In this document: positions 17,779-23,018 of the stretch, piece by piece
Position numbering within the stretch: position 1 is the first letter of the stretch
Layout: each line of letters opens with the position of its first letter
NCBI RefSeq assembly: GCF_009711975.1
Contig: NZ_VIKW01000033.1
Location: forward strand, 1-44,700
Direction of reading: 5' to 3'
Source of the DNA: Anabaena sp. UHCC 0204
GTDB taxonomy: Bacteria; Cyanobacteriota; Cyanobacteriia; Cyanobacteriales; Nostocaceae
Length of the DNA: 44,700 nt
Program-made: the position numbers and the translations under genes
Notes under the pieces: model-generated
Seen by the model: the letters and a program-made list of their open reading frames with translations, nothing else
Told to the model about the DNA's origin: nothing
The model's database searches: none

Positions 17779-17949
17779 ATGTATACTACCGTTAACGAAG
17801 AAGGCATTCTCAATAACTACGCTCCCGAAGCCAAACTTTATTACGCCGAATTTCCTACAAAAGCGCAACAACGCCGCTACGCCTTCCAAGGTGCAGTAGC
17901 AGTATTATTTTTAACTTCTATAGTTCTAATTGCTTTGGGGGTTAGCTAA
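17779..17949 (+). CDS. psb34: Photosystem II assembly factor Psb34 (Hlip-like small protein)
   Basis: The 56-aa protein starts MYTTVNEEGILNNYA, has AEFPTKAQQRRYAFQGAVA, and ends with one hydrophobic helix of about 20 residues and GVS. This matches Psb34, a one-helix protein whose N-terminus resembles high-light-inducible proteins and which associates with CP47 during PSII assembly or repair in other cyanobacteria. The cytoplasmic N-terminal part of about 35 residues and single thylakoid helix fit. The gene has its own promoter and a terminator, so it is monocistronic. The start is set by the only in-frame ATG. Confidence 0.9.
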   Translation: MYTTVNEEGILNNYAPEAKLYYAEFPTKAQQRRYAFQGAVAVLFLTSIVLIALGVS

Positions 17950-18003
17950 AATTCTCAGCTTCGGTATTTGTATCTAATCGTCATTCATATTTCTCCTAAT
18001 TAA

Positions 18004-18033
18004 CTCCGGTCAGTTTCGCCGGGGTTTTTTTTT
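18004..18033 (+). terminator. Rho-independent terminator of psb34
   Basis: CTCCGG (18004-18009) pairs with CCGGGG (18019-18024) with one T-G pair, followed by nine T residues to 18033. Confidence 0.85.
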
Positions 18034-18154
18034 GCGAAATCACAGCTAGTATATTTTCACACTAGTAAAAGGCTCTACCATCTAAATTGCATTCCCCGAT
18101 TCTACTTGGGAATCAGAGACAGTACAATTAGATATACTTAGTCAAAAATAGCAA

Positions 18155-19531
18155 ATGGTTCTCATTCGACCTAGAATAACTGATTTCTACGACATCACAG
18201 CAACCCAAGCACAGTTAGATTTTGCCATAGCATTTCTAGATGAAGATATTCCCCTCTATGTTGACCCTTTTCTTTTATGGAAGTCTCCCTCATTACAAGA
18301 CCAGGCACTTCATACCACTCTCATTAATGCCTTTAACCACCTAAATTTTCTTGTTCAGAAAGGCAAAGTAGATGAGGCGCGAAACAACCTGATTATTGCG
18401 TCTGAGTGCCAAGAAGTGGGACTTGGTTTGTCAAAAAACCGAAAAGGTGTCAGGATTAGTGCTAACAAAGCAGATGAGATTATCTCTATATTCCAAAAAA
18501 TTCCAGAGTATGGTAAATATGGCTTCGTCCACTTTGAAGAAATACAGTTTTATGTAGATGGAATCTCTAAAGATCGTATTAGTGATATTTCCTGTAACTT
18601 TATCAAATCATTTTTAATAGACTATACTATACAACAATGTGAAGAAGTAGGAATACCACTAGATAAAACTAATATTTCTACACTATATGAATACCGCAAA
18701 AATTCATTTATTCTAGATTCAGAAATCACATTACCTGTGAATCCTGAAACTAAAGAACCTTTAATTTTTGTTCCTAAAAGATGGCTAAAATTCTCTCCGT
18801 GGATAAACTTTGAGGACTATTTTAAGGAATATTGCCCTCGTGATGAAATTTTCAACCCTGGAGAAACGGAGGAACGTGTTAAAGTTTTAAACTTCAACCG
18901 GGAAAATTATGGCGTTGTGCAGGAATATATCAAGGTAAAAGAACGAACTCAGGAAGACTGTAAAAATGATCCTCTCTTTAAACAGATACCTATTCTTTCC
19001 GCCACAAGGAAATTAACTGAAATACAAAAACTGCCTACGGGAAAAGAAGATCAGGCAGACATTCAGTACGAAAAGAATATCTGTCAACTGCTTGCATCGC
19101 TTCTTTATCCAGACCTTGATTTTGCAGCCGAGCAAAGTCGTACAGATTCTGGAAGACTGATTAGAGACCTTATCTTCTACAATAATCGGTCAATAGATTT
19201 TCTTGAAGAAATTTATCAAGTCTATGGTAATAGACAACTTGTATTTGAATTAAAAAATGTGAAGGCAGTTGAGAGTGAACATATTAACCAACTTAACAGA
19301 TATCTTGATTCTGGACTTGGTAAATTTGGTATTCTTGTTACAAGAAATCCTCTTTCTAAAGCGATGTTTAGCAATACTGTTGATTTATGGTCTGGTCAAA
19401 GACGATGTATCATCACACTTACAGATGAGGATATATCGTTAATGGTTAATATCTTTGAAAGTAAGCAGAGATCGCCAATTGATGTCCTCAAAAAGAAGTA
19501 TGTAGAATTCCGTCGAAAATGTCCTTCATAA
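18155..19531 (+). CDS. Protein with C-terminal PD-(D/E)XK nuclease-like domain, first gene of a putative defence operon
   Basis: The 458-aa protein is soluble. The N-terminal 300 residues are unassigned; they open with RPRITDFYDITATQAQLDF and have DIPLYVDPFLLWKSPS (32-47) and VPKRWLKFSPWINFEDYF near residue 205. The C-terminal 150 residues look like a restriction-type nuclease: a helix (YEKNICQLLASLLYPDL), then D338 in IRDLIF, E365-x-K367 in VFELKNVK, and Q379 in the next helix (HINQLNRYL), then GKFGILVTRN. This spacing and order fit PD-(D/E)XK enzymes that cut DNA with a metal ion. Two small homologous genes follow at 12 and 6 nt, so the three form an operon. Defence function is inference. 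An alternative is a repair nuclease. Confidence 0.75.
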   Translation: MVLIRPRITDFYDITATQAQLDFAIAFLDEDIPLYVDPFLLWKSPSLQDQALHTTLINAFNHLNFLVQKGKVDEARNNLIIASECQEVGLGLSKNRKGVRISANKADEIISIFQKIPEYGKYGFVHFEEIQFYVDGISKDRISDISCNFIKSFLIDYTIQQCEEVGIPLDKTNISTLYEYRKNSFILDSEITLPVNPETKEPLIFVPKRWLKFSPWINFEDYFKEYCPRDEIFNPGETEERVKVLNFNRENYGVVQEYIKVKERTQEDCKNDPLFKQIPILSATRKLTEIQKLPTGKEDQADIQYEKNICQLLASLLYPDLDFAAEQSRTDSGRLIRDLIFYNNRSIDFLEEIYQVYGNRQLVFELKNVKAVESEHINQLNRYLDSGLGKFGILVTRNPLSKAMFSNTVDLWSGQRRCIITLTDEDISLMVNIFESKQRSPIDVLKKKYVEFRRKCPS

Positions 19532-19543
19532 AAGGTGAAATAG

Positions 19544-19948
19544 ATGAAGCGTAAAGATGTTGATGAATTTGAAAAAATATCTGGTCAGATCCAAGTAGTT
19601 TACGATGAGCTTTCGGTTTTATCTAAAAAATCTCCCAATGAAGCGGTTAACAAGTTTAAACTCAACTTTGTTAATAAATTATTGAATGACTCAAATGTAT
19701 TCCTTGGAGAAAAATATCGACCTTTTGAAGACTTTTCAGAGTTTGATATAGATGACGTACCAATAAACAGTGATGTAGTATTCATCCTTTCACAGTATCT
19801 ACAATGCTTTGAAAAAATGCGTGCAGATAATGTAAAATACAAGCATCCAAATTGGAATTGGTTGGTAGATGCAGAGGAAAATGAACCTGGAGATGAAGCA
19901 GGCAAAGTTTACATTAAAACAATTCGTCCAAAACGCTTAAGAGAATAA
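19544..19948 (+). CDS. Small unknown protein, first of a paralogous pair
   Basis: The 134-aa protein is not recognised. It is helical and acidic in the middle, with LSKKSPNEAVNKFKLNFVNKLL, then FDIDDVPINSDVVFILSQYL (about residues 66-85), a tryptophan-containing stretch NWNWLV, and a basic C-terminus (IRPKRLRE). The next gene encodes a homologue with the same core, KKxP...NKxK...VNxLL...DxDDVPxNSDVxxxLSQY. AAGGTGAAATAG before the ATG is a good ribosome binding site. It starts 12 nt after the nuclease-like gene, so it is translated from the same message. Possible roles are partner or inhibitor of the nuclease; the sequence does not decide. Confidence 0.75.
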   Translation: MKRKDVDEFEKISGQIQVVYDELSVLSKKSPNEAVNKFKLNFVNKLLNDSNVFLGEKYRPFEDFSEFDIDDVPINSDVVFILSQYLQCFEKMRADNVKYKHPNWNWLVDAEENEPGDEAGKVYIKTIRPKRLRE

Positions 19949-19954
19949 ATAATT

Positions 19955-20326
19955 ATGATTAAAAAAGATCAAAAACAGACTAGTTTTGAAAAAGCTGAAC
20001 TTTATGAAGTCATAATATCTCTGCTAATGGCTATGCAAAAAGAATTCCTGGAACTGACTAAAAAGAAGCCAGAAGCTGTGTTAAACAAGAGTAAAATAAA
20101 AATGGTCAATCGGCTTTTAAAAAAATGTCGTATCGTACTAGCCTGGGAGCAATCACTTGAATATCTTGATCTAATTGATGAAGATGATGTCCCTCAAAAT
20201 AGTGATGTAGCGCTGATGTTATCTCAGTATGTAGCTGCTATGAATCAGTTCCAATCAACCTATTATGGTTGGGATGGTAAAGAGTCTCGTTGGTTTATTT
20301 ATGAAGAAACCTTGCCTCTTCCTTAG
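19955..20326 (+). CDS. Small unknown protein, second of the paralogous pair
   Basis: The 123-aa protein is homologous to the preceding one over about 90 residues. It shares LTKKKPEAVLNKSKIKMVNRLL, IDEDDVPQNSDVALMLSQYV and an aromatic tail (STYYGWDGKESRWFIYEE). It differs by a longer lysine-rich N-terminus and by lacking the basic C-terminus. It begins 6 nt after the stop of its paralogue, pointing to translational coupling. No domain is recognised and no membrane segment is present. The pair probably arose by tandem duplication, and may form a heterodimer or have split roles. Confidence 0.75.
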   Translation: MIKKDQKQTSFEKAELYEVIISLLMAMQKEFLELTKKKPEAVLNKSKIKMVNRLLKKCRIVLAWEQSLEYLDLIDEDDVPQNSDVALMLSQYVAAMNQFQSTYYGWDGKESRWFIYEETLPLP

Positions 20327-20390
20327 ATTGCTAGTAGTTGAGTATAGTGAATGCTGTTTACCCTTATTTTACCCAATCCTAATTCCCTAT

Positions 20391-21491
20391 TCACCCATTA
20401 CCAAGAAACTTAGCTTTCATTTCTTCTAGTTCTTTATCTATGGGATCATTGCTAGTAGATTGCGATTGAGAATTAACATTTTGAGGTGGAACTTTACCAC
20501 CTGTAAATTGAGTTTTCATTTCTTGCAATTCCTTCTCGATTTGACTAGAAGTTTTAATGACAACTGTTGCTTGAGAAGTGAGTGGTGTAATGAGTGTGGG
20601 GGGTACAGATGATTGTTGGTAATTTAAATCTTTGAGAACTTGATCCACAGTTTTGTAACGGTGACTGGGGACACTTTCTACCATTTTGTCAATGATTAGA
20701 CTTAATTCTTTACTTACAGGAGTTTTGAGATATTGTTGCCATATCCAAGTAGCGTTATGGGTATCGTAGGAATCGAAAGGCGATCGCACTGTTAATAAAT
20801 TAATACAAGTTGCACCTAAACTATAGATATCACTGGCAAAAAGTGCCTTTCCTCGCATTTGTTCTGGGGCGACATATTCGGGACTACCTATACTTGTACC
20901 AGTTTTGTTCAGGGCTGTTCCTGTGGCGGATTTGGCTGCTCCAAAATCAACTATAACTAATTTGCGATCGCTACTGCGACGAATAATATTTTCTGGTTTA
21001 ATATCTCGGTGTATGACTTGTTGTCCGTGACAAAAGTGCAACACTGGCAATAAATCATTCAGTAATTGTCGAATCTGTGTTTCATTGAAAGCGCCATTTT
21101 GTTGTAGTTCTTGGTATAAATTCAGTCCATCTATGAATTCCTGAACTAGATACTGTCTGTCATCTTGGTTACAATATGCTAAAAGTGATGGAATCTGGGG
21201 ATGTTGACCCAATTCATCCAACTGTATAGCTTCTTGGTTAAATAACTCTACTGCCTTTTGTACCGTATTTGTACCTTGGGCTTGAGGGTAAAATTGCTTA
21301 ATTACACAAGGTGGTTTTGAGGGTTTATCCTCGTCTACTGCTAAAAAGGTTCTACCAAAACCACCTTGTCCGATAGGTTTAATAGCGCGGTAGCGTTCTT
21401 TCAGCAGTAATTTTGTCCCACAGGTTTGACAAAACTTAACATCATTAGTGTTTTCTGGGTGGGAACAATGGGGATTAAGACAATAACTCAT
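20391..21491 (-). CDS. Serine/threonine protein kinase with N-terminal zinc ribbon
   Basis: The 366-aa protein has a four-cysteine ribbon (C4, C9, C21, C24), then a Hanks-type kinase domain: GQGGFG (41-46), K65 in VIKQF, HRDIKPEN (161-168), DFG (182-184) and an APE-like APEQM. All catalytic residues are present. After residue 300 comes a linker with two copies of a short helix, IEKELQEMKTQF and IDKELEEMKAKF, the second at the extreme C-terminus. No membrane segment is seen, so it is cytoplasmic. This ribbon-kinase layout is a common cyanobacterial type. Substrates are unknown. It converges on the nuclease operon with 64 nt between stop codons. Confidence 0.92.
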   Translation of the reverse strand: MSYCLNPHCSHPENTNDVKFCQTCGTKLLLKERYRAIKPIGQGGFGRTFLAVDEDKPSKPPCVIKQFYPQAQGTNTVQKAVELFNQEAIQLDELGQHPQIPSLLAYCNQDDRQYLVQEFIDGLNLYQELQQNGAFNETQIRQLLNDLLPVLHFCHGQQVIHRDIKPENIIRRSSDRKLVIVDFGAAKSATGTALNKTGTSIGSPEYVAPEQMRGKALFASDIYSLGATCINLLTVRSPFDSYDTHNATWIWQQYLKTPVSKELSLIIDKMVESVPSHRYKTVDQVLKDLNYQQSSVPPTLITPLTSQATVVIKTSSQIEKELQEMKTQFTGGKVPPQNVNSQSQSTSNDPIDKELEEMKAKFLGNG

Positions 21492-21566: not shown

Positions 21567-21898
21567 TTAAGTAATGTTAAGGGATTTTTTTAAAGCTATT
21601 TCTACAAGATTAAATAGATAAGATGGTAAAATTCCTAATTTTTTGTGAAATACTGAATTATGGACAGTAGCAATTTTATCAGCCCTAATCAATGATGTTT
21701 TTTTCAGCCCTGTTTTTATAAAGTCATTAATACCCAATTTTCACTCAAATCATCAGTCGGAATTTTGGAAAAAATACCCAATATAATAAATTCTTCTCGA
21801 TGCACTGATAAAATAAGGGCTGGTCTTAATTTTGTAGCAGTTAAATTGCTAAAAGGGAAACGAACTAACCAAATTTCTAAAGATTTAGGCTTCATCAT
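21567..21898 (-). pseudogene. Frameshifted MazF/PemK-type toxin gene
   Basis: From the ATG at 21898 (or 21895) the frame reads MKPKSLEIWLVRFPFSNLTA, then KLRPALILS, the opening of a PemK/MazF endoribonuclease toxin. It meets a stop near 21716 after NWVLMTL. In another frame the same gene continues as KTGLKKTSLIRADKIATVHN and runs to a stop at 21567 (KKSLNIT), the expected second half. One frameshift, perhaps with loss of a few codons, near 21716-21722 therefore breaks it. The intact family length is about 110-120 residues. Its start overlaps the 3' end of the upstream gene by 14 nt, as in coupled toxin-antitoxin pairs. Confidence 0.8.
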
Positions 21899-22877
21899 TA
21901 TAAATATCTTCTTCTGGATCGTTCCACTCCTGAAATCCAGTTTCTGCAAGCTGCATCATTGTTAATATATTACCATGATCTGCAAGCTTCATTTTAGAGG
22001 TAAAAGCTTCTATTCCTAGAATTTTTGATTCTTGATTTAAAATTCTATCTTCTAATTCTTTCACGCGATTTACTAATATTTGGTAACTTTCAACTGAGAT
22101 AATTCCACTGCTAATAGGTTTAGTCATAATTTGAGATAATTGCTGGTTTTGGATAACTGGTTCAACTTTCGCACCTTGAAAACTATTTTCATCTTTGGGT
22201 ATACCTGTAAAAGATTTGATTGTTGCAGGAGTTAAAGACCTAATTAATTCAGGATTATCTTTAATTTTAGAAATTAGTTCTGGTTGTATTTCATCTTCGG
22301 GAATACCTGTACAGGAGTTTATTAATGCAGGATTTAAAAAGTTAATGAATTTAGGACTCTCTTTGATCTGACCTAAAATTACTTCTGTCATCATTTGGAA
22401 GTGAAATTTTCTTTCTGCTTCTCTTTCTGCTTCTTCTCGTTTTTTATCCTTCAATACTTGCTGACTAAGAAATGCTTTAATCACAGAACCTTCTGCTACA
22501 AATGCAATGTGAGGATGTAGAGATTCAAAAGCCAAAATTACCTGATCTTTATAGCCCTGATCATTCTCGCATATCCAGACCGCCATCAACTTTGTACCCA
22601 GAACCAGTGAAGACAGTAATTGATTATTACCAATATTACCATCAGCATGAAAATGGGGATTTTTTTTTGTTGCTTTTTTGATATTTTTTTCTATTTTTAC
22701 GTCAATTTCATCAGTATCAATAATAGGAGATATAGTTATCCATGTAATCTTATGTTCTGTATCTTCAAAATAAAGTTTAACTTGATCAAGACAAAGTTCA
22801 TCACCATCAAATTCTTGATCTTCCTGTGTTGATACTCCTAGTAGAGTTTGTCCAATAGGAAATTCATTGATTACCAT
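21885..22877 (-). CDS. Unknown protein with internal repeat and antitoxin-like C-terminal tail
   Basis: The 330-aa protein is read from the ATG at 22877; a TTG 39 nt upstream is possible. Residues 1-110 form a beta-rich domain (FPIGQTLLGVSTQED, FDGDELCLDQVKLYF) that loosely resembles DUF6334-type small proteins. A charged helix follows (DKKREEAEREAERKFHF). Next are two copies of a 32-residue repeat, PxxINFLNPALINSCTGIPEDE and PELIRSLTPATIKSFTGIPKDE. Then comes a coiled coil (VNRVKELEDRILNQESKIL) and a tail LAETGFQEWNDPEEDIYNDE. The tail overlaps the toxin start by 14 nt and looks like the end of a MazF-cognate antitoxin. Such antitoxins are normally under 100 residues, so a fusion is likely. 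Confidence 0.65.
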   Translation of the reverse strand: MVINEFPIGQTLLGVSTQEDQEFDGDELCLDQVKLYFEDTEHKITWITISPIIDTDEIDVKIEKNIKKATKKNPHFHADGNIGNNQLLSSLVLGTKLMAVWICENDQGYKDQVILAFESLHPHIAFVAEGSVIKAFLSQQVLKDKKREEAEREAERKFHFQMMTEVILGQIKESPKFINFLNPALINSCTGIPEDEIQPELISKIKDNPELIRSLTPATIKSFTGIPKDENSFQGAKVEPVIQNQQLSQIMTKPISSGIISVESYQILVNRVKELEDRILNQESKILGIEAFTSKMKLADHGNILTMMQLAETGFQEWNDPEEDIYNDEA

Positions 22878-23018
22878 ATTTATCACCAGCAATGAAGTCA
22901 TCTTTAATATTAACAAGATTGCCTTCAGTCCACCAGATGTGACGACAACTTTTAACGCCCACCTACTTAGTTTCTAAGTCCTAACTAACAGTTTTAAATA
23001 AAAATAAAGTCTAAACAT

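Follow-up and report, generated by a model that had tools for sequence, protein, structure and literature searches.

A predicted nuclease gene and two linked paralogous genes of Anabaena sp. UHCC 0204 match the candidate phage-defence type PDC-M36

The operon matches the PDC-M36 models

The 44,700-nucleotide stretch of Anabaena sp. UHCC 0204 DNA analysed here (the window; contig NZ_VIKW01000033.1) carries three consecutive genes, A, B1 and B2, and it is well supported that this trio is a further member of PDC-M36, a catalogued and seemingly unstudied candidate defence system. The genes are as follows.

18155..19531, plus strand: gene A, PDC-M36A protein, predicted nuclease, 458 amino acids (aa)
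19544..19948, plus strand: gene B1, PDC-M36B protein, 134 aa, predicted to fold as a bundle of three helices with strands at its C terminus (predicted local distance difference test score, pLDDT, of the model 93)
19955..20326, plus strand: gene B2, PDC-M36B protein and paralogue of B1, 123 aa

In searches with PADLOC-DB 2.0.0, A matched the PDC-M36A model PDLC04597 essentially from end to end (residues 1-458 to model positions 1-457 of 457, E 4.5e-249), while the best match of B1 was to the PDC-M36B model PDLC04599 (model positions 1-124 of 125, E 2.3e-56) and that of B2 to the other PDC-M36B model, PDLC04600 (positions 2-115 of 117, E 1.8e-46). The window holds a full-length PDC-M36A match with linked PDC-M36B proteins, the same gene set as the PADLOC candidate, and we saw no difference at the family level. 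Because all three proteins match these models, the layout has already been catalogued as a phage-defence candidate, and the statement of an initial annotation of this DNA that it recognised no described system arranged in this way is not supported. A passage of PMC11514479 spells out PDC as "phage defence candidate", and PMC12988326 cites a preprint for the PDC set. The PDC-M36 models in PADLOC carry no functional description.

The three open reading frames lie on one strand with gaps of 12 and 6 nucleotides, exactly where the initial annotation had located them. They are not chance frames, since 60 mononucleotide shuffles of the window produced no open frame longer than 217 codons, compared with 458 for A, the complete trio is found again in different phyla, and the ratio of nonsynonymous to synonymous substitution rates (Nei-Gojobori method) was low, with values of 0.09-0.10 in A, 0.17-0.21 in B1 and 0.20-0.23 in B2. 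These ratios were calculated against the close copies at loci L001, from a Nostoc sp., and L069, from a genome of the window's family; two further pairs were saturated at silent sites. Scans for promoters and terminators around the operon gave nothing above shuffles, and the one terminator that was detected follows the gene upstream of the operon.

Linkage, co-inheritance and distribution

Profiles of A, B1 and B2 were run against 43 loci, including the window, on the strand of the match. Full-length A was present at 22 of them, and B1 and B2 followed it at all 22, which bears out the proposed linkage of the two small paralogous genes to the first gene. Two of the 22 carry damage: at L011, an insertion between 9925 and 11089 that contains what looks by eye like a transposase frame interrupts B2, with A and B1 intact, and at L042 B1 is out of frame beside an intact A. 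The count leaves out L010, L015 and L016, where the frame of A is broken (B1 is also broken in L010, and B2 was not found in L016), L022 and L026, where A is cut by the contig end, and L030, which has a fragment of A only. Close relatives are among the 22 loci (e.g., L003 and L004), and sequencing errors may account for the frame breaks. A further 15 loci have the N-terminal module of A alone, and no B1 or B2 was found there within the 3.6-8.7 kb searched on the match strand.

Pairwise distances were correlated between A and B1 (0.874), A and B2 (0.856) and B1 and B2 (0.825), and none of 2000 permutations gave a value as high; this comparison used 19 of the 22 loci and excluded L004, L011 and L042. 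Furthermore, the tree of A placed a Pleurocapsaceae sequence among those of Pseudomonadota, Chlorobiota and Myxococcota. Judged from these sequence comparisons, A, B1 and B2 are co-inherited and the trio is horizontally mobile. Among 386 genomes of the window's phylum, full-length A occurred in two, one of them the window's own, with B1 and B2 in the same two, and a third genome had the N-terminal module only. Among the plasmid records searched, the 3 with full-length A were the only ones to have B1 and B2. Viral contigs gave five matches with an alignment as query and none in a first scan with the window protein alone, and a DNA search of E. coli genomes found no relative.

The tight operon with small linked partners, its occurrence on both plasmids and viral contigs, and the presence of a PIN-domain gene close to it in L001 would also fit a stabilising module of the toxin-antitoxin kind, in which A would be a nuclease toxin, B1 and B2 its antitoxins, and the main role the maintenance of plasmids or prophages rather than defence against phages. 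We regard this as unlikely. An operon with the toxin first and two partner genes behind it is an unusual order for toxin-antitoxin systems, the adjoining window genes that were scanned are not mobile-element genes, and A has stayed intact at the two loci with a damaged partner gene (B2 in L011, B1 in L042), which is a weak argument in itself.

The nuclease domain of A

The C-terminal part of A carries a predicted PD-(D/E)XK nuclease domain. A poorly modelled middle segment lies between this domain and a conserved acidic N-terminal module.

18155..18784, plus strand: N-terminal module, residues 1-210, with invariant D31, D37, E84, E128, D140 and D144 (alignments A5 and A6)
18791..18982, plus strand: middle segment, residues 213-276 (pLDDT below 50; mean column conservation 0.70, resembling the rest of A)
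18995..19528, plus strand: C-terminal PD-(D/E)XK nuclease domain, residues 281-458
19070..19072, plus strand: codon of E306
19166..19168, plus strand: codon of D338
19247..19255, plus strand: codons of E365-x-K367
19289..19291, plus strand: codon of Q379

The initial annotation had picked out D338, E365-x-K367 and Q379 as catalytic-looking residues of such a domain. All of these, together with E306, were invariant in 17 of 17 homologues of A, and the residue order fits that of the PD-(D/E)XK superfamily. The AlphaFold model of A has the alpha-beta nuclease core fold of this superfamily, and a second look at the model with VIA-align clearly ranked restriction nucleases at the top (BspD6I, FokI, MspJI and AspBHI), so that residues, model and structural matches all support the nuclease assignment. 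Pfam PDDEXK_3 matched 13 of 14 homologues of A (best E 1.4e-4); the window protein itself scored 18.3, below the gathering cut-off of 22.

These best structural matches, which are type IIS and modification-dependent enzymes, raise the alternative that the trio is a stand-alone restriction enzyme, with B1/B2 or the N-terminal module reading sequence or modification and A cutting incoming DNA, either unmodified or modified, while the host is not killed. Restriction-modification genes adjoin the trio in L024 and the A fragment in L030. However, the matches are confined essentially to the nuclease domain. Sequence identity to the type IIS cleavage domains of R.BspD6I and FokI is approximately 8-11%. 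A differs from them in its N-terminal module, and its conserved unit includes no methyltransferase. Type II restriction-modification requires one, whereas no methyltransferase family neighboured the trio at three or more loci out of 26. We consider a restriction enzyme of this kind quite improbable.

The N-terminal module of A

The initial annotation had left the long N-terminal region of A unassigned. This region does not stand alone: it proved to be a module common to at least three other architectures, which are proteins of the PHROG 27295 type. Remote relatives of residues 1-230 of A include proteins of ~315 aa on Bacillus and Acinetobacter plasmids, proteins of ~470-500 aa on proteobacterial and actinobacterial plasmids and on viral contigs, and proteins of 660-700 aa on a Calothrix plasmid and in a genome of the window's order. 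Across 18 aligned sequences with a median pairwise identity of 26%, twelve of the first 210 positions were invariant, and six of these are acidic (hypergeometric P 0.002, given 29 acidic residues among the 210; the sequences are not independent). No credible Pfam family was found for the module at the thresholds used, nor did it give anything credible in a profile search of solved-structure sequences, and two remote proteins with the module had no match in phage records.

The relatives share the module with its six invariant acidic residues but have C-terminal parts that differ from that of A or are missing, and they come without B1 and B2 at the 15 loci described above. The six residues are kept in L031 and L033, whose proteins end before the nuclease domain, and in L050 and L051, where the aligned positions 306, 338, 365 and 367 differ. 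The C-terminal alignment with these relatives is unreliable, so that D338 in particular is not comparable. The proteins of L050 (3998-5407) and L051 (3971-5410), both on viral contigs, combine the module with an A-like C-terminal part that lacks the aligned active-site residues. Judged by eye, many relatives also seem to have a nuclease domain at their C-terminal end: those of ~490 aa have an E-x-K-L-A pattern that, read by eye, resembles another PD-(D/E)XK site, and one of five scanned matched Pfam PDDEXK_9 weakly (E 0.01).

The invariant acidic residues of the module may form a separate site. They persist in proteins that lack the nuclease domain or its active-site residues. We tentatively suggest, while thinking it doubtful on balance, that A has two sites, its N-terminal module being an undescribed metal- or nucleotide-binding enzyme or a ligand sensor, and that in PDC-M36 an obligate heteromer of B1 and B2 reads or gates this module. 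Were this so, the trio would be the best entry to a whole uncharacterised family of sensor-nucleases.

The small proteins B1 and B2

B1 (DIDDVPINSDVVFILSQY) and B2 (DEDDVPQNSDVALMLSQY) both carry the motif DxDDVPxNSDVxxxLSQY, as had been noticed at the outset.

19745..19798, plus strand: motif DxDDVPxNSDVxxxLSQY in B1 (sequence comparison)
20177..20230, plus strand: copy of the motif in B2 (sequence comparison), inside the DNA repeat D1

On sequence evidence, the two are a constantly linked, anciently duplicated pair of paralogues. Their description as acidic holds for the window proteins, with predicted isoelectric points of 5.2 (B1) and 5.3 (B2) beside 5.4 for A, but not as a general rule, since among 35 homologues one B1 reached 7.7 and one B2 8.8. 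Pfam gave no credible family for either protein, Foldseek found no PDB or viral match to the B1 model at E 0.001, and profile searches of solved-structure sequences with A and with B1/B2 returned nothing credible. The structural likeness of B1/B2 to the mycobacterial proteasome activator Bpa is below the level that the tool treats as meaningful for helical bundles, and the search of PDB sequences with the B1/B2 profile did not list Bpa.

Neighbouring genes at other loci

Near the trio at other loci, besides the PIN-domain gene of L001, we found an AlbA_2-type gene in L026, a phage integrase in L020 and a terminase in L021. On a Leptolyngbya plasmid (L028 8163-9846), umuD and umuC-type genes lie directly upstream of the trio, the umuC-like part being annotated as two features, and on a Methylobacterium plasmid (L029 8931-9962) a umuC-type gene does so. 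This arrangement would be expected if A were a DNA-repair or damage-response nuclease of mobile elements, acting beside error-prone polymerases. However, only two of the 22 loci with full-length A showed it; most of the remaining ones are unannotated and were checked by clustering (26 loci) and by eye. As the link to umuDC and the SOS response is limited to these two plasmid loci, we rank it low and consider a repair role highly unlikely.

A candidate defence mechanism

We consider it probable that the trio serves as a defence module of the candidate type PDC-M36, one that moves horizontally and in which B1 and B2 gate the predicted nuclease A. B1 and B2 would form a heteromer that would bind A, probably through the middle segment and the N-terminal module, and would hold or license its nuclease. 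A signal of infection or from a mobile element, sensed by the B complex or by the N-terminal module, would then release A, and the released protein would cut phage or host nucleic acid, stopping the invader or the infected cell. The roles of sensor, activator or inhibitor that had been suggested for the N-terminal region and the small proteins are plausible.

Several points weigh against a gated defence nuclease. No relative of A was found at E 1e-5 in 50,697 phage records, and literature searches found no paper naming PDC-M36. Besides A, B and overlapping antisense frames, no family recurred in three or more of the 26 clustered loci, so that the neighbours are mixed, and on the two plasmids above the trio follows umuC-type genes, not defence genes. 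Foldseek of the A model against PDB gave no match that reached E 0.001 (the best was 1.6e-3), the next-best structural matches for A include the RNA polymerase subunit RPB5, a non-nuclease, and the strand with D338 (residues 321-340) is poorly modelled (pLDDT 46-51). Sensors engaged in an arms race often diversify, whereas identity among A proteins is 54-67% outside the closest copy. Finally, the intact A beside one damaged B gene in L011 and L042 weakens a strict one-antitoxin model and is mildly against a single indispensable antitoxin; A may be inactive there or the sequence wrong.

What the present analysis adds to PDC-M36 is its anatomy, i.e., an invariant nuclease site, a linked and duplicated partner pair, co-inheritance across phyla and an N-terminal module common to other proteins. 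The acidic module and the paired B proteins are the least known parts of the trio. Concrete residues and a three-protein complex can now be tested directly, and PDC-M36 is tied to a larger family that had no credible Pfam match in its N-terminal part at the thresholds used.

The insertion site and its surroundings in the window

The trio lies within a segment that interrupts synteny with the genus relatives compared.

18036..20389, no strand: segment without homology in these relatives, a synteny breakpoint holding the trio (left and right homology limits)

Homology with the relatives ends on the left at 18030-18035 (11 loci) and resumes on the right at 20369-20397 (3 loci). L069, from another genus of the family, shares window positions 18133-20297 alone at E 1e-5 (20 kb vs 18 kb), if a short cross-match between the B1 and B2 motifs is disregarded. 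The sequences flanking the trio are far apart on one contig in two relatives and on different contigs in two others, which places the trio on a rearrangement point. No direct repeat of 12 nucleotides or more brackets the segment, in a search that covered repeats from that length upward.

Just upstream of the trio, an Rfam match to PsrR1 (photosynthesis regulatory RNA 1; 17948-18029, plus strand, 53 bits) directly follows a 56-aa gene, which we take to be psb34, and the end of this match coincides with a terminator-like hairpin. We found no paper linking PsrR1 with psb34. We examined the psb34 site in 5 relatives, of 15 others in the genus set, and in 3 of them it is adjoined by a gene that is presumably pgsA. 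In L067 (1989-3930), the site holds an AAA ATPase and a DUF4276 protein that match PADLOC HEC-01 models, the ATPase being among 74 matching families; in L068 (2285-3562), it holds an ATPase near-identical to that of L067 (itself not scanned), with no partner frame of at least 90 aa beside it. The presence of the trio in the window, of the HEC-01-matching pair in L067 and of the near-identical ATPase in L068 suggests that the psb34 site is a small variable defence slot. Among the best 8 of 16 matches, a literature search for HEC-01 gave unrelated titles only.

Downstream of the trio, a 77-aa frame (21716-21949, minus strand) resembles PemK/MazF-type toxins by eye; Pfam gave no match to this short frame, and the same gene is a 132-aa open frame in L080 and L081. 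The window also has a gene for a DUF6334-family protein of 343 aa (21888-22916, minus strand), which was found in 5 of the 16 genus genomes searched, the window's included.
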